From NCBI GenBank assembly GCA_030017555.1, contig JASEIC010000007.1, positions 1-35,750 on the forward strand: a stretch of 35,750 nt of DNA. The letters run 5' to 3'. Position 1 is the stretch's first letter; every line of letters begins with the position of its first letter. Made by a program: the position numbers and the translations under genes. Below, piece after piece: positions 10,691 to 32,501 of this stretch. The notes under the pieces are model-generated. The model was not told where the DNA came from and ran no database searches. It worked only from the letters and a program-made list of their open reading frames with translations. The stretch is from Patescibacteria group bacterium. GTDB taxonomy: Bacteria > Patescibacteriota > Minisyncoccia > UBA6257 > GWB1-50-10.

Positions 10691-10769
10691 GTGCCTTTTG
10701 TTTGAAAATGCGCGAACCTTTTTTGGACGAAACTAACCGTCTCGCTTCGCTCGGCGGAACGCTTGGGCG
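10691..10769 (+). repeat. Left 79-bp terminal repeat of the accessory island
   Basis: This stretch begins GTGCC after the tRNA-Leu hairpin. It recurs as a reverse complement at 25008-25086 with about seven differences in 79 bases. The pair brackets the island holding all the XRE modules. Shared blocks include TTTGTTTGAAAAT, CGCGAACCTTTTTT and CTCGCTTCGCTCGGCGGAAC. Confidence 0.75.
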
Positions 10770-11017
10770 CGACGGAAGGAGGGTGTGGAGCGCCCCGAAG
10801 CAGAGCAAGCTCGCTACGGGGTAAAAATTCCGCCGCACCCGAGCCGAAGTTCGCCAGAGGTCGGATAAACTTCGCTCCCGCCGCCGCTCGCTGACGCTCG
10901 CCAGCCAGCAAAAAAGTTTTCTTCGCTTTTCCTGATTTGCGCGCGCCGATTCTTTTCTTCTAAAAGGAAAACAAAACTTTTCTTTGTTGGTCTGCTCTTA
11001 ACGAGCAGGGCGGCGGG
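10765..11017 (+). repeat. Long GC-rich direct repeat, copy A
   Basis: This 253-bp non-coding block matches 20673-20924 with one substitution and one single-base gap. It is built from hairpins: CCCCG/CGGGG around 10793-10822; a large AT-rich stem with AAAGTTTT and AAAACTTT arms at about 10913-10983; and CTGCTC/GAGCAG near 10991-11008. Open frames inside it are composition artefacts. A 63-bp part (10773-10835) also recurs inverted at 16945-17007. Confidence 0.85.
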
Positions 11018-11222
11018 GCTTCGCTTCGGCAGGTCGGCAAAAATTCCCTCCCCCAGACCCCCTTCCCCCGCACCAGAACAAGTTCGGTGCGGGACTTCGC
11101 TTTTTGCCCGCCTGCTTGAGCTTCGTCCAGATTTTTTTCGGCGGAAAATTATTATTTATATTTAGTCGCCCTTGTCTCACACCGTCCAACGCGGGCGACA
11201 CAAAGGAACTCCCTAAAAATCG
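11018..11222 (+). repeat. Mosaic hairpin spacer between repeat A and XRE-1
   Basis: I see no gene here. A CCGCACC/GGTGCGG-type hairpin sits near 11069-11093. A 27-bp segment at 11127-11153 recurs inverted at 16918-16944. The block AAGGAACTCCCTAAAA near 11204 recurs before XRE-3 (about 21090) and, as AAGGAATTCCCT, before XRE-2 (about 17058). The spacer before XRE-3 has the same plan with diverged sequence. Confidence 0.55.
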
Positions 11223-11289
11223 TTGTATAAAAATTGATTTCATGTTAGTATAGTGATGAGGGTTTAAATCAACGCTCATACTTATACTA
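11223..11289 (+). promoter_or_regulatory. Promoter and inverted-repeat operator of XRE-1
   Basis: TTGTAT (11223-11228) and TAGTAT (11246-11251) are 17 bases apart. TAGTATAGTGATGAG (11246-11260) and CTCATACTTATACTA (11275-11289) form an imperfect inverted repeat whose left arm covers the -10 box. The layout suits autorepression by the XRE protein encoded at 11297. A second TATACT (11283-11288) close to the ATG could give a leaderless message. Confidence 0.5.
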
Positions 11290-11296
11290 TCATACT

Positions 11297-11509
11297 ATGG
11301 AAAACAAGCAAAGTAAAGAAATTGGGGATAAAATAAAAGCTCTGCGGATCAAGCAAGAGCTGACGCAAGACGCTCTCGCCCGCAAATGCGATATTCCCTA
11401 CACAACACTAACCAAAATTGAATCAAATGTGATAACGAAGCCGTCAATCCAAACCGTGGCGAAAATCGCAAAAGGGCTTGAAGTTAGTATTGACGATTTA
11501 ATAAAATAA
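11297..11509 (+). CDS. XRE-family transcriptional regulator 1
   Basis: This 70-residue helix-turn-helix protein of the Cro/C1 type reads 'IGDKIKALRIKQELTQDALARKCDIPYTTLTKIESNV' with a C-terminal 'KGLEVSIDDLIK'. It consists of the DNA-binding domain only, like controller (C) proteins of restriction-modification systems. Unlike XRE-2 and XRE-3 it does not head a restriction operon; it precedes a tyrosyl-tRNA synthetase and a set of metabolic enzymes. An operator-like inverted repeat lies directly upstream. Confidence 0.9.
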   Translation: MENKQSKEIGDKIKALRIKQELTQDALARKCDIPYTTLTKIESNVITKPSIQTVAKIAKGLEVSIDDLIK

Positions 11510-11524
11510 AAAGTGACAAGTTAT

Positions 11525-12703
11525 ATGAAAAATAATCTATCAAAAAAAATTAGAGAATTATTAAATCGGGGCGTCGAAGAAATAATCGATAAATCTAATC
11601 TTGAAGCTAAGTTGAAAAGAGGAAAACAGCTTCGTATTAAACTTGGTATTGATCCAACAAGCCCAAATATACACTTGGGCAGGTCAATTCCATTGCTTAA
11701 GTTAAGAGATTTTCAAGAGATGGGCCATAAGGTCATATTAATTATCGGTGATTTTACCGGTCTAATTGGTGATACTTCAGATAAAGATAGTGAACGGCCA
11801 ATGTTGTCAAAAAAAACCGTTAAAGAAAATCTGAAAACATACATTAAACAAGCCGCCAAGATAATTGATATAGATACAGCCGAAATTTATCATAACAGTA
11901 AGTGGCTTAACGAACTGAGTTATATGGAGATAGGTCGCCAAGCAGATATTTTTTCCCTTAATGAATTTATTTCTCGAGAAAATATTCGCCGACGATTAGA
12001 TAAAGGTACTAGAGTGTCTTTGCGAGAACTGTTATACCCCTTAATGCAGGGATATGACTCTGTAAAGGTAAAAGCCGATGTTGAAATTGGAGGTACAGAT
12101 CAGCGTTTTAATCTTTTAGCAGGTAGAGATTTACAGAGGTTCTATGGTCAAGAGCCGCAAGACATTCTTACCAATCCTCTTATTGAGGGGTTGGATGGGA
12201 GAAAGATGAGTTCCAGTCTTGGAAACACTGTTAATTTGCTTGATACGCCAAACGATATGTTCGGGAAAATTATGTCGCTTCAGGATGATTTGATTATCAA
12301 ATATTTTATCTTGCTTACACGGGTTGATATGGAAACAATCAAGAAGCATGAAGATGGCTTAAAAGCAGGGGTGAATCCTCGCGAATTTAAAATAGAACTC
12401 GCTTTTGAAATTGTCCGAATGTATTACTCCGAAAAAGATGCGCAAGCCGCCAAGGATTACTTTGTCAAAACATTCTCAAAAAAAGAAATCCCTACTAATT
12501 TGCCGGGGTTTAAGCCAAATAACTATGACATCGTATCAATTCTGATTGAAGCCAAACTGACTCCCTCAAAATCAGAAGCCAGGAGGGTAATTGAACAAGG
12601 TGGTGTAAAAATTGATGGCGTGGTTATAAAAGATATTCATTATGTTGTGTCATCAGGCTCAGTATTACAGAAGGGCAAGATTAAATTTGTAAAAATTTTA
12701 TGA
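11525..12703 (+). CDS. tyrS: Tyrosyl-tRNA synthetase, divergent (TyrZ-like)
   Basis: This class I synthetase has the HIGH-type motif as 'PNIHLGRSIPL', the tyrosine/tRNA core 'YPLMQGYDSVKVKADVEIGGTDQRFNLLAGRDLQ', the signature 'GRKMSSSLGN', and a C-terminal S4-like RNA-binding domain ('SEARRVIEQGGVKIDG'). It charges tRNA-Tyr. Differences from the usual TyrZ pattern are SLRELLYPL for the common SLHEFLYPL, a changed 'ARMLERDDF' region, and KMSSS for KMSKS. The start at 11525 is preferred; a GTG at 11513 is possible. It lies 15 bases after XRE-1 and overlaps the next gene as ATGA. It could be the only tyrS, or an accessory, possibly resistance-type, copy. Confidence 0.9.
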   Translation: MKNNLSKKIRELLNRGVEEIIDKSNLEAKLKRGKQLRIKLGIDPTSPNIHLGRSIPLLKLRDFQEMGHKVILIIGDFTGLIGDTSDKDSERPMLSKKTVKENLKTYIKQAAKIIDIDTAEIYHNSKWLNELSYMEIGRQADIFSLNEFISRENIRRRLDKGTRVSLRELLYPLMQGYDSVKVKADVEIGGTDQRFNLLAGRDLQRFYGQEPQDILTNPLIEGLDGRKMSSSLGNTVNLLDTPNDMFGKIMSLQDDLIIKYFILLTRVDMETIKKHEDGLKAGVNPREFKIELAFEIVRMYYSEKDAQAAKDYFVKTFSKKEIPTNLPGFKPNNYDIVSILIEAKLTPSKSEARRVIEQGGVKIDGVVIKDIHYVVSSGSVLQKGKIKFVKIL

Positions 12704-13476
12704 ATAGGAAAATAATTGAGATATGTAGAGATTTTATTGAAGAAGTGTTAGAGAAAGAAGATTGGTTCTGTCAATTGGTCAATAAGGGGGCATGCGATCT
12801 CCTACTGTTGACAGGAACCGCGACCAGAGGCACAAAAGATTCTTTTTCTGATATAGATATGTTTCTTGTTTGCAAATATAAGGCACAGGTTAAACATTCA
12901 TTAAAACCCGTACGACTATATGCCTACAGAGGGGAACAAATTGAATTATCTGTTGTAGCCACTGAAAAATTGTTTAACGATCAATTTAATAAAGAAAATC
13001 TCTACTGGTGGCACAAGACACATATAATCAAAAGTTATAACAAAACAGCACAAAAAACTTTATCGAAAGCCTCTCGCTTATCGAAGAAAGAATTTCTAGA
13101 TAGGTTATGGACTGATTTCGTGCGTTTCGAAATTAACAGTTCTGACATCGAAAAACAAATAAAGAGAGATGAACCCATGAGTGTGAATTTATTATTTAAC
13201 GAGAATATTAAACTCGTGGCGGATTCTATATTAGTTAGCCGCGGCGAATTCCCTCAATATAAATGGTTTGGGGACGTTCTAAAACTAAAAGATCCAAAAT
13301 TATATAAAACAATAATACGGGCTCAACACAGTAAAAATTTTATGCAGATTAAGCGCCACGATACTAAATTAAAGCGGATCATTGTTAAGATACTAAAACA
13401 AAATGGTTTTACCGAAAAAGAAATTAGTAATTGGGAAAACTGCAACTTGAAAAGAATTATTTTTCAGTATAGGTAA
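12700..13476 (+). CDS. Nucleotidyltransferase of the Pol-beta/MNT superfamily
   Basis: The N-terminal domain shows the nucleotidyltransferase signature: 'LTGTATRGTKDSFSDIDMFLV' has the helix-turn G-T and the D-x-D metal-binding pair (about residues 38-57), with a further acidic residue in 'EQIELSVV'. The C-terminal ~150 residues are helical and basic. Related enzymes adenylylate antibiotics, proteins or RNA ends. The ATG overlaps the tyrS stop by four bases, and the next gene starts seven bases after its stop, so it belongs to the module 1 operon. The substrate is unknown. Confidence 0.75.
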   Translation: MNRKIIEICRDFIEEVLEKEDWFCQLVNKGACDLLLLTGTATRGTKDSFSDIDMFLVCKYKAQVKHSLKPVRLYAYRGEQIELSVVATEKLFNDQFNKENLYWWHKTHIIKSYNKTAQKTLSKASRLSKKEFLDRLWTDFVRFEINSSDIEKQIKRDEPMSVNLLFNENIKLVADSILVSRGEFPQYKWFGDVLKLKDPKLYKTIIRAQHSKNFMQIKRHDTKLKRIIVKILKQNGFTEKEISNWENCNLKRIIFQYR

Positions 13477-13482
13477 TATTCT

Positions 13483-14511
13483 ATGAAATTAATTTATAAA
13501 AACAACGGAAACAAAGTTTTTCTCGGAGATAGCTTTAAGTCTGACATTGATATTATCCTTAACAAAGGCAAATTACAACACAAGAAGGTAATATTGGTCA
13601 TCGGGATCAAAAGTTTTTTAAAGACCCAGCGCTACGCACAGTTAAAAACTGTTTTTAAAAATAATGGGATTATCATTGTCAAACATTTAAAAGTTAGACC
13701 AAATCCAAGCGAATTGCGTATTGTTCGTACTCTATCTAAATTAAGACACAAATTTGATTTCGTATTTGCTCTCGGCGGAGGTTCCGCTATTGACGCGGGG
13801 AAATTAATAAAGCATCGCTTTAACGACTCGGCAAAATTAGTTGTTGTCTATACATTACCGGGTTCAGCTACTATAGTTACCCCCTTTACTGTTTTTGATA
13901 ATGATGAATTTAAGATCGGCATAGCGGCAGATAATCTTATTCCCGATTATTCTTACATTAGCAAACAATTTATAAAATCTATGAGTATTGAAAGAAAAAT
14001 AATAGCTATTTCAGATATATTTTCCCACGCCATAGAATCGTTATATTCCAAGGCGGGTAATAAAACTAGCAAGATAAAATCAAAAAAATCGCTGAAGATA
14101 TTAACTACCAACAAGGTAGAGCAATTGCAGTTAGACGATTTTATAAAAGCAGATATATATGCTGGTCTGGCGGAGAGGGTCGCTTTAGTTTTATTCCCGC
14201 ACGCGGCTGGACATTACTTAACTTACAAATTTAATATTCCCCACAGTGTTGCGACAATGCATTTCTTAGTCCAATATCTTAATCTTTTAGCGAATAAAGG
14301 AGTCAATATTAACTTAAAGTATATTCAATACGCGGAATATCTACATTCGCTTCTTAAAAAGAGGGGGTTGATTCGAAAAATTAACTTGTCAAATACCGAA
14401 ATAGTAGAATTATTTAACCTAACACATAAGTACATGAACTTTGCGTATAAAAATGCGCCCACTAAAATAAAACAAAACGAATATAAAACAATTCTGAAAA
14501 ATTATGTCTAA
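13483..14511 (+). CDS. Iron-type alcohol dehydrogenase / dehydroquinate synthase-fold enzyme
   Basis: The NAD(P)-binding 'FALGGGSAIDAGK' lies near residue 97, as in Fe-ADH, glycerol dehydrogenase and dehydroquinate-synthase-like enzymes. Metal ligands can be followed as D and H in 'SDIFSHAIES' (~178) and H in 'FPHAAGHYLTYKFNIPHSVA' (~238-252). At 342 residues it is a little shorter than most Fe-ADHs (about 380). In this operon it is followed at once by an adenylating ligase and an aldehyde-forming reductase. Reduction of the resulting aldehyde to an alcohol is a reasonable inferred role. It overlaps the next gene by eight bases. Confidence 0.75.
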   Translation: MKLIYKNNGNKVFLGDSFKSDIDIILNKGKLQHKKVILVIGIKSFLKTQRYAQLKTVFKNNGIIIVKHLKVRPNPSELRIVRTLSKLRHKFDFVFALGGGSAIDAGKLIKHRFNDSAKLVVVYTLPGSATIVTPFTVFDNDEFKIGIAADNLIPDYSYISKQFIKSMSIERKIIAISDIFSHAIESLYSKAGNKTSKIKSKKSLKILTTNKVEQLQLDDFIKADIYAGLAERVALVLFPHAAGHYLTYKFNIPHSVATMHFLVQYLNLLANKGVNINLKYIQYAEYLHSLLKKRGLIRKINLSNTEIVELFNLTHKYMNFAYKNAPTKIKQNEYKTILKNYV

Positions 14512-15748
14512 AAAAGAAAGACAGTTGAGTTTTTTGAACGAGACTCTTCGCACAGCAAGAAACTCCGATCTTTACAGGTCAAAACTTAATGGCTATCCAC
14601 TGAAATTGAAAAATATCGCAGAATTACAAAATTTTCCTCTCACAGCAAAAAAAGAATTAAGAGATCACTACCCATTCGGGGTGTTGGCTGTGCCTATTAA
14701 GGAGGTTATTGAAATGCATACAAGTTCTGGCACAACTGGCAAAGCTACTTTATCTTATTTATCTTACTTCACACGAGAAGACTTAGAGGCGGGATCAAAA
14801 GCAATCGCAGAAGCTTGGCAATGTTTTGGAATAACTGATGAAAGCCGCGTGCAGTTTATGATGAGCTATGGCTTGTTTAGTGGCACGATGCTTAATACCT
14901 ATGCTATTCAGGAAATTGGCGGATTCGTAGTGCCCGCAGGAATTCAATCTGCGGAAAAACAAATACAAATGATGTTAGATTTCAAAGTAGATACTATTGT
15001 CGGAACACCCGGATACTATTATTACCTTTTCGACTACATAATAGAAAAAAATATTCCATTAGAGAAACTCTCTCTAAAGCGTGGTATTGCGGCAGGAGAA
15101 ATTTATTCTGATAGAGTTCGTACTGAAATCGAACAAAAGTTTAAAATCAGAATATTTGATCATTATGGATTATGCGAAGTTAATACTGGCATTGCTTACG
15201 AATGTGAATTTAGAACCGGATTACATGTTTTAGACGAATACGTCTTGCCAGAAATTATCAACTCCGAAAATGGTCAAATATTGCCCCCAGGGAATGAAGG
15301 CGAATTAGTTCTTACGACTCTTAAGAAAAGGGCATCGCCGGTAATACGCTACAGAACCGGCGACATTACTACTCTAAGATTAGAAAAATGCCCCTGCGGG
15401 AGAAATTCTGTTAGGATAGATCGGTTAAAGAGGAGAACGGATGATTTAATTTTCATTAAAGGTATCAAAATAGATCCTTATGAATTGAAAGAATTTATTT
15501 TAGAAATTGCAAATAATGGTATTTATAGCGACATTAAAATAAGAGTGAGGAGCGATTTCATAAATTACAAACCAGAGATATTAGTAAGTTTAAAGGATTC
15601 ATCTAACAATAGCCTTTTAGTTTTTATTCAGAAAAGGCTGAAAGATAAAACACTATTAACTTTTGATGTGACAAATGTCAATCGCGATTACTTCCAAAGA
15701 GGAGAAAACAATAAAGTGAAATTTGTTGAGTATGTTGATAAAAAGTAA
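14504..15748 (+). CDS. Acyl-adenylating ligase, PaaK/LuxE-like
   Basis: The 414-residue AMP-forming enzyme has the P-loop-like 'HTSSGTTGKATLSY' (~residue 75), 'DHYGLCEVN' (A5-type), 'GELVLTTLKKRASPVIRYRTGD' (~267-285), a zinc-type 'CPCGR' (~296) and 'RRTDDLIFIKGIKIDPYELKEF'. This is the phenylacetate-CoA ligase fold shared with LuxE acyl-protein synthetase. It activates a carboxylic acid as acyl-AMP and passes it to a thiol. The next gene is a reductase of the LuxC/ALDH type, so the pair resembles the LuxE-LuxC acid reductase. The substrate cannot be read from the sequence. Confidence 0.85.
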   Translation: MSKKERQLSFLNETLRTARNSDLYRSKLNGYPLKLKNIAELQNFPLTAKKELRDHYPFGVLAVPIKEVIEMHTSSGTTGKATLSYLSYFTREDLEAGSKAIAEAWQCFGITDESRVQFMMSYGLFSGTMLNTYAIQEIGGFVVPAGIQSAEKQIQMMLDFKVDTIVGTPGYYYYLFDYIIEKNIPLEKLSLKRGIAAGEIYSDRVRTEIEQKFKIRIFDHYGLCEVNTGIAYECEFRTGLHVLDEYVLPEIINSENGQILPPGNEGELVLTTLKKRASPVIRYRTGDITTLRLEKCPCGRNSVRIDRLKRRTDDLIFIKGIKIDPYELKEFILEIANNGIYSDIKIRVRSDFINYKPEILVSLKDSSNNSLLVFIQKRLKDKTLLTFDVTNVNRDYFQRGENNKVKFVEYVDKK

Positions 15749-16919
15749 ACAAAAACTAGCTAACTTAATTACTGATTTAAACAAAATCATCAAAAAGGAA
15801 AAAGATGAGCTTTTTAGATTGAATAAGAAGATTACATTAGATACAGCTTATTGGATTGCAGAGGATTATGATACGATGAAATCATACCTTAAAGATTACA
15901 TAAAAAATCTCCCTGCGTTGGATACAATAGATAAAATAAAACCTAAGGGAAAAATTTTAATTATATTGTCTTATAATGAACCGTTTATTTTATCCATAAT
16001 TCCTGTACTGAATGCACTTATTATCGGTAATGAAGTTATCTTAAAGCCAAGCCAAGGGGCTGAAGATTTCGCTAAAATAATTTGGCAAAAGTCAGGACTA
16101 GCAAAAAAATATGGGCTAAAATTACAAATTATTTCTCCGGAAACACACAAAGAAACCGAAGGTCTTATCCGAGAAGTACGGGCAGTGTATTTCTTCGGGT
16201 CGTTTAAAGTAGCTCAACGTCTAGCTAAGATATGCGGAAAGTGTTATGCAGAATTTTATCCCGAAATAGAAACCGCCGATGTAAAAATCTTTAACAAAAA
16301 TCTTCCCGACGTTAAAAAAGATGTTCTTCTTACTCTTAGAGAATCGCTAACTCATTCAGGTCAATCTTGTCAAAGAATCCAGGGTATTTTTGTGCATAAA
16401 AATCTATATAACGACTATATTAAAGTTCTAAAACAAAAATTTATTAGCTTATGTAATTCTAAAGATTTGTATAAATTTATTGACGACCAATATATACTTG
16501 CGAGAAAAAATCTACTCGATTTACTCCATGCGGACATAGAAAAATCTGAGCCTGCTGAGGTTGTTGAGGTGAGAACTCTACCCTTGTTGATTATAAAACC
16601 CGAGACGGAAAGTGACCTTGTAAAAAATGCCTATTTTTTACCGGTGTTATGGACTTTGCCCTTTGAATCAGAGGAAAGATTAATTAAGATACTAAATTCG
16701 CGAAAATTTTTCTTGGGTATTAACATACAAAGTGATAACGAAAACTTTATTAAGTATATTATAAATAATACGAGGTTCACTCGTTATACAGTTAATTCTT
16801 CTCACATAAATATTAGACCGCAAGAAGGTTGGGGAGGATCTTGGCCAAGTGGGTTTTCTGGATACAGAAGTTGGATTGAACATTTTTCTGATGGATGTAT
16901 TATAATTGATGAATCCTAA
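15732..16919 (+). CDS. Acyl reductase of the LuxC/aldehyde dehydrogenase superfamily
   Basis: The ALDH fold is visible in the cofactor strand 'GNEVILKPSQGAEDFAKIIW', in 'VYFFGSFKVAQRLAK', and in the catalytic-cysteine region 'THSGQSCQRIQGIFVHKNLY' (~residue 213). The protein has 395 residues, between LuxC (~480) and short ALDHs. With the upstream ligase it could reduce an acyl thioester to an aldehyde. The ATG at 15732 is preferred over the TTG at 15723; both overlap the ligase gene. The stop codon lies inside an inverted-repeat copy (16918-17007), so the repeat junction forms the exact end of this gene. Confidence 0.75.
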   Translation: MLIKSKQKLANLITDLNKIIKKEKDELFRLNKKITLDTAYWIAEDYDTMKSYLKDYIKNLPALDTIDKIKPKGKILIILSYNEPFILSIIPVLNALIIGNEVILKPSQGAEDFAKIIWQKSGLAKKYGLKLQIISPETHKETEGLIREVRAVYFFGSFKVAQRLAKICGKCYAEFYPEIETADVKIFNKNLPDVKKDVLLTLRESLTHSGQSCQRIQGIFVHKNLYNDYIKVLKQKFISLCNSKDLYKFIDDQYILARKNLLDLLHADIEKSEPAEVVEVRTLPLLIIKPETESDLVKNAYFLPVLWTLPFESEERLIKILNSRKFFLGINIQSDNENFIKYIINNTRFTRYTVNSSHINIRPQEGWGGSWPSGFSGYRSWIEHFSDGCIIIDES

Positions 16920-17007
16920 TAATTTTCCGCCGAAAAAAATCTGGCGGCGGAATTTTTACCCCGTAGCGAGCTTGCTCTGCTTCGGGGCGCTCCACACCCT
17001 CCTTCCG
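16918..17007 (-). repeat. Inverted, internally deleted repeat copy C
   Basis: Read on the minus strand, 16945-17007 equals 10773-10835 (63 bp, perfect) and 16918-16944 equals 11127-11153 (27 bp, perfect). Copy C is therefore copy A plus its spacer with about 290 bases removed, turned round. It abuts the stop of the reductase gene. A further hairpin (GCCTGC...GCAGGC, about 17007-17051) follows, then AAGGAATTCCCT. Confidence 0.85.
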
Positions 17008-17155: not shown

Positions 17156-17368
17156 ATGGCAGAGTCAAATAAAAGTAATATAGGCAAAACTGTAAAAAAG
17201 TTGAGGGAGAAAATGGGCTTATCGCAAGAAAAACTAGCCCGCCTTGCCGATGTCTCAAATAATACGGTTGTTAATATTGAGGCGGGCAAACAAGACAATC
17301 CGACAATCGAAACCTTGAAAAAGGTCGCCAATGCTCTGCAGGTTGGGGTTGATAACCTTTTGAAATAA
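17156..17368 (+). CDS. XRE-family regulator 2 (controller-like)
   Basis: This 70-residue helix-turn-helix protein reads 'IGKTVKKLREKMGLSQEKLARLADVSNNTVVNIEAGKQDNPTIETLKKVANALQVGVDNLLK'-like in layout: the DNA-binding domain alone. It overlaps the methyltransferase start by one base (TAATG). Together with the strong 16-bp inverted repeat upstream, this is the classical arrangement of a controller protein that delays or balances a restriction-modification operon. Confidence 0.9.
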   Translation: MAESNKSNIGKTVKKLREKMGLSQEKLARLADVSNNTVVNIEAGKQDNPTIETLKKVANALQVGVDNLLK

Positions 17369-20672: not shown

Positions 20673-20924
20673 GGGCGCGACGGAAGGAGGGTGTGGAGCG
20701 CCCCGAAGCAGAGCAAGCTCGCTACGGGGTAAAAATTCCGCCGCACCCGAGCCGAAGTTCGCCAGAGGTCGGATAAACTTCGCTCCCGCCGCCGCTCGCT
20801 AACGCTCGCCAGCCAGCAAAAAAGTTTTCTTCGCTTTTCCTGATTTGCGCGCGCCGATTTTTTCTTCTAAAAGGAAAACAAAACTTTTCTTTGTTGGTCT
20901 GCTCTTAACGAGCAGGGCGGCGGG
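20673..20924 (+). repeat. Long GC-rich direct repeat, copy B
   Basis: This copy is identical to 10765-11017 except for one G-to-A change and one missing base in a T-rich run. It has the same orientation as copy A, the same relation to a downstream XRE gene, and no coding content. Copies A and B lie 9.9 kb apart and flank modules 1 and 2. Confidence 0.85.
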
Positions 20925-21177: not shown

Positions 21178-21384
21178 ATGCCAGACATACAGAAAAAATT
21201 TGGTGACAAATTGCGCGAGTTGCGCAAGCAAAAGGGTCTTTCTCAAGAAGACTTAGCTTTGAAGTCGGGTCTTCATCGAACTTATATAAGCGATATTGAA
21301 CGAGGATCGCGCAATCTTTCTCTCAAAAACATCGAGAAAATCGCTAAGGCGCTAGGATTGGCAACAAAGTCGCTTTTAGAATAA
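21178..21384 (+). CDS. XRE-family regulator 3 (controller-like)
   Basis: This 68-residue Cro/C1 helix-turn-helix protein reads 'FGDKLRELRKQKGLSQEDLALKSGLHRTYISDIERGSRNLS'. The 'HRTYISDIERG' recognition helix is very typical of restriction-modification controller proteins. It lies four bases upstream of the MamI-like endonuclease, so it probably controls the nuclease transcript. Confidence 0.92.
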   Translation: MPDIQKKFGDKLRELRKQKGLSQEDLALKSGLHRTYISDIERGSRNLSLKNIEKIAKALGLATKSLLE

Positions 21385-21388
21385 TCGT

Positions 21389-22393
21389 ATGCAACCAAAC
21401 AAGAAATTCGTTACCATAGGCGATAATCTCAAAAAGATTAACCAACTCCTCGCAGAATTGGTTCTTCAGCCAAGACTCAACGCCATTAAATGGTCTGCAA
21501 TAACAAAACAAACCCCAAATATAAAGATTGGATATCCGGGTCAGCATCTTGCTTCGCTTGTTGCGGGAATGGAAGGTGAACGAACGGGGGCGAGAGGAAA
21601 TGATCTTATTGATGGGTCTGAAGTAAAATCATGCTCAAGAATTGATGCGTTGGATAAGTGTTTAGATTGCGAAAGTCCTGTTGCAAGAATTGAAACAGTC
21701 TGCCCGAATTGCAGTTCCGGCAATATCCTACGGAGCAATGATTCAAAATGGCTTTTTGGGATTAGGAACGAAGCAGATTTGGACACTTTACTGCATGGAG
21801 TAAAAAGAATTCTACTAATTCTCGGGGATTATCCAAATTTTGATGAGGGTGATTTTAATACTTTACGCTTTCAAACTTTCGAAATTTGGCCGGAAAGTAA
21901 ACGTAATATTCGTTTTGGGGAAATAATGACTAATTACTATCGGAAAATTTATCTTGCACACAAGAAGAAAAATCAAGCGAAAACACCCGCGCCCAAAAAT
22001 TTCTGGCCATACCAGTACCAGTTTTATGTGTGTAATCCCATACCAACATTTGGATGTATTATCAAAAATGCAAATTCAAACCCAAGCATAAAAGTTTTTC
22101 ATTATGTGGAGCCAACTGTTGATCGTTCAACTTTACCGTCAATAGTTATGCCAGTTGATATCTTGAAAGATTTTGAGCTCGCTTTGATATTAAAAAACGC
22201 AAAGCCTGGTAAAATAGAACGAATGATAAAACCGGCCCTTCGAGGCAAGATAGGAAAAATCAAAAAGCTTTCAATCACTCAAAAACGAGAAATGTTGGTA
22301 GGAATTGATGAGGCGTTGCGTTCCTATTTACCCCTTCGAGACACTGATAGAATTTCAATTTCCAAGAAGAATTACACGAGACGAACACACTAA
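21389..22393 (+). CDS. Type II restriction endonuclease, MamI-like
   Basis: The 334-residue protein contains 'GYPGQHLASLVAGMEGERTGARGNDLIDGSEVKSC', which supplies an acidic metal site and the E-V-K of a nuclease core. A zinc ribbon (CLDC...CPNC, ~residues 91-110) and 'NDSKWLFGIRNE' follow. I associate this combination with the MamI family (founder specificity GATNNNNATC); this is from memory and needs checking. The gene follows XRE-3 and is convergent with the LexA-methyltransferase gene, their stop codons overlapping at 22390-22393. Nuclease and methylase are thus driven by separate promoters and regulators. Confidence 0.7.
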   Translation: MQPNKKFVTIGDNLKKINQLLAELVLQPRLNAIKWSAITKQTPNIKIGYPGQHLASLVAGMEGERTGARGNDLIDGSEVKSCSRIDALDKCLDCESPVARIETVCPNCSSGNILRSNDSKWLFGIRNEADLDTLLHGVKRILLILGDYPNFDEGDFNTLRFQTFEIWPESKRNIRFGEIMTNYYRKIYLAHKKKNQAKTPAPKNFWPYQYQFYVCNPIPTFGCIIKNANSNPSIKVFHYVEPTVDRSTLPSIVMPVDILKDFELALILKNAKPGKIERMIKPALRGKIGKIKKLSITQKREMLVGIDEALRSYLPLRDTDRISISKKNYTRRTH

Positions 22394-23952
22394 AAAAGTC
22401 TGGGTGTATTTTTCAGTTGTTTAATTCTTTCTTTAGATATATTGATATATTCCTCATCAATTTCTATCCCGATATAGTTTCTTTTCAGATTGATACAGGC
22501 GAGGGCTGTTGAACCCGCTCCCACAAATGGGTCAAGCACTGTCATTCCATCATTGCTACTTGCTTTGATAATACGCTCAATCAGTTTGAGTGGTTTTTGT
22601 GTTGAGTGATAGCGTTTTTCTCCATAGAAATCTATATCTTCCCAGACATCGGTAAAACCCATTTGTGGATTAAAAGTAAAATTAACCTCCGAGTAGGGTT
22701 TTTTAAATCCCAAAATCTTTTCTAGTTTTTCCCATTGCTCTTTAGTCGGTATTTGTGCCAAGATATTTTCTCCGGTGTACAAAGACCAAAGTCCGCCCCC
22801 ATTACTTTTTACCTCCATTGCGTCATTGATTTGTTTTGCTGTTAAACCCCTCTCTTTGTTTTTTTCTAATAAGAACTTTTTAATTTCAGGTTGGTGATAA
22901 TAATTGAAAAATAAAATACTTTCTGTAACGTTGGGAAACATCTTATAATTTTTTGTCGCTCGCCCGCTTATAGCTTTTATGCCTTTATTGATTATGATTT
23001 GCTGACGTAATGCAAAGTTTTCTCGCTCAATTTCTGGCAAAAGATAAGCAAGGGTTCTAAAATAACCGAATATATAAAAAGACCCCGTCTTTTTTACCAC
23101 TCGCGCAACTTCTTTTACCCACTGTTTCGTCCAATAAATATAGTCATTTTCTGTTCGCCACTGATAATCCCATTTTTCATTTATGACTTTCCAGTAAGGA
23201 GGATCGGCTATTACCAAGTCTATAGAATTGCTAGGTATTTTTTTTAATTCTTCGATAGCATCTCCGCAAATCAGCTTATTGAGGGGAAGTTTCTGATATT
23301 TCTGAACGGACTGTTTAATCTCATATTTTTCGAGAATTTGCGGTGATGCTATCTCGTCACGCACTACATCCACAACCACGCCCTGGATAGAAACTTCTCG
23401 CTCACCATTTTTTATGATTATTGACTCGTAGCTTTTATTTGCGGATTGTAATCGAATTTGTCCTCGCTCTTTGAAAAAAGTTTTGAGAGTCGCGTCGTGA
23501 TTATCAATGAGGGCAACAACTTTTTCCCCGTTTTCAGCGATACTTTGTTGGCGGACTAAAACCACATCTCCATCGTTGATATTTTCATCAATCATACTTT
23601 GCCCAAGAACTTTTAAAGCAAAGTATTCTTGTCCGGACTGAATTTTAGTTTTTGGAACAGCGATGCTTTCTGTTGAATTTGATATTGCCTCAATGGGCTG
23701 TCCGGCAGCAATCGTTCCCAACAAAGGAATTTTTACCAGTGGTTCACTTTCGCTCACACTTATTGCGCGCGGCCGATTTTCTTCTTTGTATAAATAACCT
23801 TTTTCTTGGAGTGACTTTAGGTGGTGATGAGCAGTGGAGAGAGAGGACAGATGAAAATGTCGCCCGATCTCTTTTAGAGAAGGGCTAAAACCTTTCTTTT
23901 TTTGATAGGACTGCACAAAATCCAGTATTTCTTTTTGGCGTTTGGTTAGCAT
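22390..23952 (-). CDS. LexA repressor-DNA methyltransferase fusion
   Basis: Residues 1-200 read as a complete LexA. They have the winged helix 'PSLKEIGRHFHLSSLSTAHHHLKSLQEKGYL', the self-cleavage site A83-G84 (IAAGQPI), catalytic S119 (LGQSM) and K157 (ATLKTF), and the terminal strand 'GVVVDVVRDE'. These positions almost equal E. coli LexA (84/85, 119, 156). After a ~22-residue linker, residues ~223-520 form a beta-class DNA methyltransferase: 'LICGDAIEELKKIPSNSIDL', DPPY at 250-253, 'KRYHSTQKPLKLIERI' and 'VLDPFVGAGSTALACINL'. DPPY suggests adenine-N6 methylation, suitable for a MamI-like partner. The frame is unbroken. DNA damage could cleave the protein between the operator-binding part and the methylase; this is inference. 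Confidence 0.9.
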   Translation of the reverse strand: MLTKRQKEILDFVQSYQKKKGFSPSLKEIGRHFHLSSLSTAHHHLKSLQEKGYLYKEENRPRAISVSESEPLVKIPLLGTIAAGQPIEAISNSTESIAVPKTKIQSGQEYFALKVLGQSMIDENINDGDVVLVRQQSIAENGEKVVALIDNHDATLKTFFKERGQIRLQSANKSYESIIIKNGEREVSIQGVVVDVVRDEIASPQILEKYEIKQSVQKYQKLPLNKLICGDAIEELKKIPSNSIDLVIADPPYWKVINEKWDYQWRTENDYIYWTKQWVKEVARVVKKTGSFYIFGYFRTLAYLLPEIERENFALRQQIIINKGIKAISGRATKNYKMFPNVTESILFFNYYHQPEIKKFLLEKNKERGLTAKQINDAMEVKSNGGGLWSLYTGENILAQIPTKEQWEKLEKILGFKKPYSEVNFTFNPQMGFTDVWEDIDFYGEKRYHSTQKPLKLIERIIKASSNDGMTVLDPFVGAGSTALACINLKRNYIGIEIDEEYINISKERIKQLKNTPRLF

Positions 23953-31739: not shown

Positions 31740-32501
31740 TTATAAATACCCAGCTTGTTTTAACCAATCAATATTTTCCCATTCCCAGAGGCGTTTAGCG
31801 CCGAGGAATGCGTGATAATCCTCGTACCAGTAGGGGAATTCTTGAAGTTCGATTCTTCCTTCTAATGGGCCCCATTCGTGGGAGCAGGCTTGCATAAAAG
31901 GGTTGCCGTATTTTGTTTTCACTTGATCTTTGCCGCCCTTGCTTCTTAAAATCGCGCCGCAATGAATACATTTTTTATTTTGATCAATGCGTAAAATCCA
32001 TCGGGTTTCCAGATTTTTAACTGTATCTTTTAATGCCGCAATATAAGCGGCGGTTTGAAGATTATAATCGCGATAAATTTCTTGGGAAGTTTTAATATCT
32101 AAAATGCCCAGCTTACCATCCATTAATGCAACAGCGTCTAGCGTGCCGGCATAACGTTCTTCATAATTCACGAGACGTTTTTCAACATATTCCGGATCAA
32201 CCTGAATTTTTTTATTTAAAACAAATTCCATAAAAGCTTTGATTGATGGCTCAATTAATTTGGGGATTTCCGGTTTTTCGCCAATCATTAGCTTTTCTAC
32301 TATCTCATGGATAAGCGTGCCTTCAGAAGCTGATTGACGTTTAACGCGTTCGCCTTCGGCAAAACTATCCATTCGGCCATAAAAGTGATATAAAGCGGGC
32401 TTGGCTTTAATTTCAATAATTTTAGTTACGCGTGGGTACCAAAATCCGTCAATTTCATAACCGCACTGGTTTTTAAATTGTTTAATATCGGTAAAAAACA
32501 T
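31740..32501 (-). CDS. PD-(D/E)XK nuclease superfamily protein
   Basis: The RecB/Cas4-like order of motifs is present: 'EGTLIHEIVEKL' (His motif), 'RYAGTLDAVALMDGKLGILDIKTS' (G-x-x-D and D-x-K) and 'DYNLQTAAYIAAL' (Q-x-x-x-Y). A C-terminal zinc-type cluster follows ('CIHCG', then C-x-H near 'ACSHEW'). Its 253 residues suit a stand-alone nuclease acting in repair or on foreign DNA. There are no CRISPR genes nearby, so it should not be called Cas4. Confidence 0.8.
   Translation of the reverse strand: MFFTDIKQFKNQCGYEIDGFWYPRVTKIIEIKAKPALYHFYGRMDSFAEGERVKRQSASEGTLIHEIVEKLMIGEKPEIPKLIEPSIKAFMEFVLNKKIQVDPEYVEKRLVNYEERYAGTLDAVALMDGKLGILDIKTSQEIYRDYNLQTAAYIAALKDTVKNLETRWILRIDQNKKCIHCGAILRSKGGKDQVKTKYGNPFMQACSHEWGPLEGRIELQEFPYWYEDYHAFLGAKRLWEWENIDWLKQAGYL

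Follow-up and report, generated by a model that had tools for sequence, protein, structure and literature searches.

A patchily distributed operon of Patescibacteria joins a putative acid-reducing enzyme set to a second tyrosyl-tRNA synthetase

Results

A six-gene operon beside restriction-modification genes

The locus studied here is a six-gene operon in a Patescibacteria group bacterium (assembly GCA_030017555.1), lying within a stretch of 35,750 nucleotides that was analysed whole and is called the window below (contig JASEIC010000007.1, positions 1 to 35,750). The genes encode, in order, an XRE-type regulator, a second tyrosyl-tRNA synthetase (TyrRS, the product of tyrS; the window copy is called TyrS2), a putative nucleotidyltransferase (NT), an iron-type alcohol dehydrogenase (Fe-ADH), a PaaK-like coenzyme A (CoA) ligase and a reductase of the aldehyde dehydrogenase (ALDH) fold (Table 1). 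A sequence-only reading of this DNA had described an XRE-headed operon with mostly overlapping gene ends, and this description held: all six open reading frames are open on the plus strand and are near-touching or overlapping, with gaps of 3, -4, 6, -8 and -17 nt. The reductase was taken to start at the ATG at 15732 in preference to the TTG at 15723. The AT-rich segment that runs up to the start codon of the regulator gene is a candidate XRE operator/promoter, and the regulator itself is weakly similar to the control-protein models of restriction-modification (R-M) systems (PADLOC Control_protein, 2.5e-9).

Table 1 Features of the operon and of its flanking repeats (window positions)
Feature	Position	Strand	Evidence
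Left-hand repeat block	10765..11154		~253-bp element 10765-11017, direct copy at 20673-20924; 64- and 28-bp stretches inverted past the operon
Upstream region	11222..11296	+	AT-rich, repeated AGTAT/ATACT; 72-nt alignment, 87.5% identity to L038:10-81
XRE/HTH_3 regulator, 70 aa	11297..11509	+	PF01381 2e-15; 82.9% identical in L038
TyrS2, second tyrosyl-tRNA synthetase, HLGR/KMSSS subtype with S4 domain	11513..12703	+	TIGR00234 351 bits, PF01479
Pol-beta-type nucleotidyltransferase-like protein (NT), 258 aa	12700..13476	+	Alignment with orthologues; L041 orthologue PF01909 2.7e-9
Iron-type alcohol dehydrogenase (Fe-ADH)	13483..14511	+	PF00465 70 bits; metal ligands and GGGSxxD kept
PaaK-like adenylate-forming CoA ligase	14504..15748	+	PF00501, PaaK models; 4r1l, 2y27
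ALDH-fold reductase, divergent, N-terminally short	15732..16919	+	PF00171 Aldedh 101 bits; C213/E178/N82
Right-hand inverted repeats	16917..17007		Exact 28 bp (11127-11154/16917-16944) and 64 bp (10773-10836/16944-17007, part of the ~253-bp element)

The window genome is 674 kb in size and 99% complete, and the relatives of its reductase all belong to Patescibacteria, or the candidate phyla radiation (CPR). When 149 relatives of this genome, including members of the same genus, were searched with the ligase, five weak generic matches were found besides its own, and thus the operon looks horizontally acquired. A binning artefact is unlikely, as the same contig holds housekeeping synteny (53-89% identity) with a same-genus genome. 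The reductase, NT and ligase found no relatives in viral contigs, and in a plasmid search the matches of the reductase and ligase were generic ALDH or PaaK proteins (for the ligase the closest were haloarchaeal PaaKs, 36-37%) and the NT had none. A phage or plasmid origin was therefore rejected. So was a known anti-phage defence system, as among the PADLOC defence models the XRE protein matched generic helix-turn-helix models only and TyrS2, NT, Fe-ADH, ligase and reductase had no match.

Catalytic residues of the enzyme set

The proposal made from the sequence was that the operon could reduce a carboxylic acid to an alcohol, and it depended on an intact reductase active site. Asn82, Glu178 and Cys213 are invariant in six reductase homologues and align with class 3 ALDH, and an AlphaFold2 model (pLDDT 80) matches ALDH structures. 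By its fold and its catalytic Cys, Glu and Asn the reductase belongs to the Aldehyde dehydrogenase superfamily (PF00171). Homology of the ligase to PaaK (4r1l, 2y27) extends over about 330 residues, and the adenylation motifs are kept. Its scores lie far below the PaaK equivalog cut-offs (261.5 versus 646.3 and 281.9 versus 700 bits), and we class it as a PaaK relative rather than an equivalog member, which therefore probably takes a substrate other than that of PaaK. The Fe-ADH is a member of the Iron-containing alcohol dehydrogenase family (PF00465), as its metal ligands D178, H182, H240 and H254 are conserved in alignment with the Thermotoga maritima enzyme 1o2d and its GGGSxxD motif is kept.

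At E<=0.001 neither the LuxC profile (PF05893) matched the window reductase nor the LuxE profile the window ligase, for which PF00501 was found instead. Two reductase homologues (loci L032 and L031) barely pass the LuxC cut-off, with 26.9 and 21.8 bits, and score far higher with Aldedh. The LuxE-LuxC identity was thus rejected in favour of a PaaK/class-3-ALDH-like pair. The path from acid to alcohol hence survived in its enzymology, with the catalytic ALDH residues, the four Fe-ADH metal ligands and a PaaK-type ligase in place, and lost its resemblance to LuxE-LuxC; a sequence of acid, acyl-CoA, aldehyde and alcohol appears feasible for this enzyme set.

The 258-aa NT has no Pfam or NCBIfam match. 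Its Saccharibacterial orthologue matches NTP_transf_2, and the catalytic pattern G[ST]...SDIDxF plus a later Glu is conserved in the NT alignment. For these reasons it seems reasonable to label the protein a Pol-beta-type nucleotidyltransferase, by its GSx(n)DxD motif and third carboxylate, and it is a candidate enzyme for adding a nucleotidyl cap. The NT family was found in no other genome among the 379 CPR genomes sampled.

The PaaK-ALDH module in other CPR genomes

When 84,980 genomes were scanned with the reductase alignment, so that loci were found through the reductase only, five further loci came up, four of them from CPR genomes and the fifth (L040, genome G433) from the window's own phylum. 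The PaaK-ALDH pair is present in six loci including the window, all CPR. A Taylorbacteria locus, L038, has all six genes in the same order, with identities from XRE to reductase of 82.9, 82.1, 65.1, 63.7, 76.1 and 65.6%, and keeps the upstream region as well (Table 1). A Saccharibacterial locus, L041, has NT, Fe-ADH, PaaK and ALDH genes and, after a gap of 6 nt, a tyrS that is convergent with them; a further tyrS lies 2.7 kb upstream. The gene order suggested by the sequence-only reading thus recurs elsewhere, and the metabolic operon that it had noted beside R-M genes is co-inherited. The operon is real and unusual, and its genes are not grouped by chance. It is conserved, rare and patchily distributed.

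In the Moranbacteria locus L039 the PaaK and ALDH genes are followed by one for a TyrRS/TrpRS-like catalytic-domain protein and then by tyrS. The former (L039:11287-12336) encodes 349 residues of class I type with PHVGT and KMGKS motifs, and its relatives in the PDB are weak. Variant clusters carry a hemL-like aminotransferase, a kinase and a NadR-like adenylyltransferase in place of Fe-ADH and NT. One of them, L042 in Saccharibacterial genome G324, reads tyrS, HIT-like gene, kinase, NadR-like adenylyltransferase, class III aminotransferase, PaaK, ALDH and tyrS. The variant aminotransferase is nearest hemL and the variant kinase nearest homoserine kinase. The hemL substrate, glutamate-1-semialdehyde, is an alpha-amino aldehyde, and for that reason the likeness fits an amino acid as the substrate that is reduced.

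Upstream of the kinase-variant cluster of G433 (L040:2616-4242) lie a transposase-like gene and genes for two multi-pass membrane proteins that by eye resemble ABC-2 transporter permeases and are a possible exporter. Another locus, L062 (G940:C19, 2617-5297), holds a more distant two-gene pair of a PaaK-like ligase (45% identical) and a longer ALDH (25%) with no tyrS, NT or ADH, and this pair is an outgroup of the module.

A recurring extra TyrRS

The recurring extra TyrRS is the important part of the finding. A tyrS adjoins the PaaK-ALDH module in five of the six loci. The window TyrS is a second copy, and contig C7 holds an intact resident tyrS beside a ClpP-like gene (the idea that an in-frame TAA breaks the resident gene was rejected, its reading frame being intact at 393 aa). 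An extra complete TyrS together with a resident copy elsewhere is found in the window genome, G811 and G812; in G551/G813 and in G324 two tyrS copies flank the module. Of the six carrier genomes five encode at least two complete TyrS proteins, and of 282 other CPR genomes about 3 do so (from a sample of 285 genomes of >=90% completeness, three of them carriers), the latter figure being approximate on account of the second matches in G361 and G437. Fisher's test gave p ~2e-8 for this excess. With every two-match genome counted, apparently split genes included, p rises to ~2e-6; both values ignore shared ancestry, as between the window and L038. Separately, tyrS was seen as two weaker matches, as if carrying an intron or intein or being split, in the otherwise complete CPR genomes G278, G359, G409, G281, G332, G367, G396, G404 and G458.

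In a TyrRS tree the window and L038 proteins group with the one TyrS of G350 (L102) within a clade of ordinary HLGR/KMSSS enzymes. The L039, L041_b and L042_b proteins form a separate clade with ultrafast bootstrap support of 95 (100 for L039 plus L041_b), the branches of which are long, and long branches can attract each other. Given these two TyrS lineages, one of the window and Taylorbacteria and one of Moranbacteria and Saccharibacteria, the association of tyrS with the module arose at least twice. The active site differs from that of ordinary enzymes in the L039 and L041 sequences, whereas the window and L038 enzymes match their ordinary clade. The cluster TyrRSs of L039 and L041 (L041_b) carry KQSKS together with T-x-[IV]-G-SDQ (the TxxG change), which the alignment shows in no TyrRS among the other 66. 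The window enzyme lacks the second lysine of KMSKS (KMSSS), a trait of its clade. HLGR/KMSSS was rejected as a resistance signature of TyrS2, as it also occurs in ordinary TyrRSs from other CPR genomes that have just one.

Repeats and the surrounding variable region

In genome G005, of the window's family, rpmA adjoins a homologue of window positions 31740-32501, which marks 10-31.7 kb as a variable region. It contains the TdeIII and MamI R-M genes. The 61-nt core of the repeats that flank the operon has three copies in the whole genome, all in this region, and a relative 75% identical lies behind the L038 operon, which suggests a shared mobile or recombination element. The GC-rich repeat family (10765-11017, 16944-17007, 20673-20924 and 10682-10777/25000-25095) separates the operon, TdeIII R-M and MamI R-M modules. 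A structured RNA was rejected for the ~253-bp repeat, which folds little better than shuffled sequences and matches no Rfam family, as was a tRNA-Leu attachment site, the tRNA 3' end having no second copy in the window.

The genes for the TdeIII methylase and the MamI-like nuclease each have an XRE-type gene immediately before them (17156-17368 and 21178-21384, respectively), and thus three neighbouring modules start with XRE. Beside the MamI-like nuclease, 22390-23952 on the minus strand encodes a 520-aa protein in which a LexA DNA-binding domain and an S24 peptidase are fused to an N6/N4 DNA methyltransferase; we take its predicted product to be a methylase of an R-M system that carries its own LexA-type sensor.

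Discussion

The explanation we favour, held tentatively and at rather less than an even chance, is that of a mobile XRE-controlled operon that makes a nucleotidylated, tyrosine-derived mimic directed at TyrRS, with TyrS2 as the immunity enzyme. The substrate of the PaaK-like ligase would be a carboxylic acid, with tyrosine or an acid resembling it as the most likely. The CoA thioester formed from it would be reduced to the aldehyde by the ALDH-fold enzyme encoded by the overlapping gene, and the aldehyde to a tyrosinol-like alcohol by the Fe-ADH. Addition of a nucleotide to the hydroxyl by the NT would then give a stable look-alike of an aminoacyl-adenylate, a tyrosyl-adenylate mimic or its precursor. 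TyrS2 would replace or back up the resident TyrRS, so that protein synthesis survives. Of this picture, the analysis shows the set of genes, their conserved order, the catalytic residues, the tie to TyrS and the patchy occurrence; the direction and substrate of the reactions, the nucleotidyl cap, the TyrRS target and the immunity are inferred. In the variant clusters the hemL-like enzyme might handle an amino-aldehyde, and the presence of the kinase and NadR-like enzyme, which could supply the cap, points to a nucleotide there also. Both sets of cap enzymes would thus lead to a product that bears a nucleotide. Among solved structures the closest to the window TyrS is that of the Thermus thermophilus TyrRS, 1h3e, which was reportedly determined with tyrosinol, and both tyrosinol and tyrosinyl adenylate inhibit TyrRS.

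Immunity has a precedent in AgnB2, the self-immunity leucyl-tRNA synthetase (LeuRS) against agrocin 84/TM84, which has KQSKS, and in TM84-bound LeuRS the second lysine of KMSKS contacts the inhibitor phosphate (PMC5059758). The KQSKS of the cluster TyrRSs is suggestive of immunity rather than proof of it.

Several observations weigh against this explanation. TyrS2 itself is without an unusual resistance signature, HLGR/KMSSS being normal in its clade (L102, L134). The earlier suggestion that tyrS gives self-protection gains support because an extra TyrS recurs at these loci and is weakened at the window by its ordinary KMSSS-type enzyme. In AgnB2, the Q573M change alone did not restore sensitivity (PMC5059758). 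The window operon has no exporter, the function of NT rests on a motif and its structure model is poor (mean pLDDT 50), and the kinase-variant cluster L031/L040 has no nearby tyrS, its genome (G433) having a single one. The loci number six in all, and two of these (window and L038) are close relatives. Finally, the reductase retains the general-base Glu typical of aldehyde-oxidising ALDHs, and the reactions could therefore proceed in reverse.

A bolder version, which we regard as a long shot, is a metabolite-based addiction module travelling with R-M systems among Patescibacteria. The toxin would be a small-molecule TyrRS inhibitor and the antitoxin the insensitive TyrRS that comes with it. 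An autoregulated XRE protein would see to it that the TyrRS is made first, much as control proteins are used in R-M systems.

TyrS2 might instead be biosynthetic and supply Tyr-AMP or Tyr-tRNA to the pathway, for which the seryl-tRNA synthetases (SerRSs) of valanimycin (VlmL) and albomycin (AbmK) are precedents (PMC9032320). Such a role would suit a TyrS inside the operon, as in the window and L038, and the extra class I TyrRS/TrpRS-like protein beside the TyrS of L039. We consider it unlikely, however, because the dedicated PaaK-like ligase already covers acid activation, the L041 tyrS stands next to the reductase gene on the opposite strand and TyrS2 looks like a housekeeping enzyme complete with S4 domain. 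The operon could also make a nucleotide-activated alcohol or amine for cell-surface decoration, with tyrS as a hitch-hiker or the mark of an insertion site. The kinase, cytidylyltransferase-like enzyme and aminotransferase of the variant do resemble CDP-alcohol routes, and in both Saccharibacteria the module lies near an ordinary-type tyrS, as at a favoured place of insertion. This too we hold to be improbable, as the window and L038 operons have no glycosyltransferase or other transferase for the activated unit, their second, unrelated tyrS is inside the operon and away from the resident gene, and the statistics of the tyrS link speak against a passive passenger.

Oxidation of alcohols or amines through aldehyde and acid to acyl-CoA, as a small scavenging pathway for aromatic compounds of these kinds, would agree with the Asn/Glu/Cys triad of oxidising ALDHs and with PaaK, which normally activates phenylacetate for catabolism. 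Such a pathway leaves NT and TyrS unexplained and the operon has no downstream ring-cleavage or beta-oxidation genes, which makes it distinctly improbable. That the genes are an ordinary cassette with no joint function, caught in a repeat-rich, variable region between R-M systems, is very improbable and largely refuted by the conservation of six-gene order and overlaps in L038 and of four genes in L041, across CPR lineages.

The genomes of Patescibacteria are reduced, and little secondary metabolism is usually expected of them. If the TyrRS-mimic explanation is right, a compact, recurring cluster with an extra TyrRS would be a lead, guided by self-resistance, to TyrRS inhibitors of a new class, which may serve against hosts or competitors or keep the cassette in place. 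The cluster would also suggest a four-enzyme route to an aminoacyl-adenylate mimic, and the gene set is directly testable. New here is the link of the PaaK-ALDH module to TyrRS; our literature search found no paper joining TyrRS, self-resistance and a biosynthetic gene cluster.

Among known systems, LuxE-LuxC fatty acid reductase is similar on paper, in that an acid is activated and the acyl group then reduced to the aldehyde, but the window ligase is of the PaaK family and the reductase is closer to class 3 ALDH, with the LuxC model unmatched. PaaK phenylacetate-CoA ligase is a clear homologue, albeit one whose equivalog cut-offs the window ligase does not approach. The TyrRS inhibitor SB-219383 comes from Micromonospora and has no known link to the present enzyme set. 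It is a natural tyrosine analogue, a small molecule aimed at TyrRS (PMC7916415). The albomycin (SerRS AbmK, synthetase-like AbmF) and valanimycin (VlmL) clusters likewise include a synthetase gene with a resistance and/or supply role (PMC9032320), but their enzymes are SerRSs, the chemistry is that of nucleoside-siderophores and the hosts are Streptomyces. The agrocin 84/TM84 system with AgnB2 differs in that the putative target here is TyrRS, the product is putative, the host belongs to the CPR and the window TyrRS has KMSSS rather than KQSKS. Both would follow a design, proposed here for the operon, in which a mobile cluster makes a nucleotide-type mimic of an aminoacyl-adenylate and also encodes a resistant second copy of a class I synthetase, and KQSKS is common to AgnB2 and to two cluster TyrRSs, those of L039 and L041.

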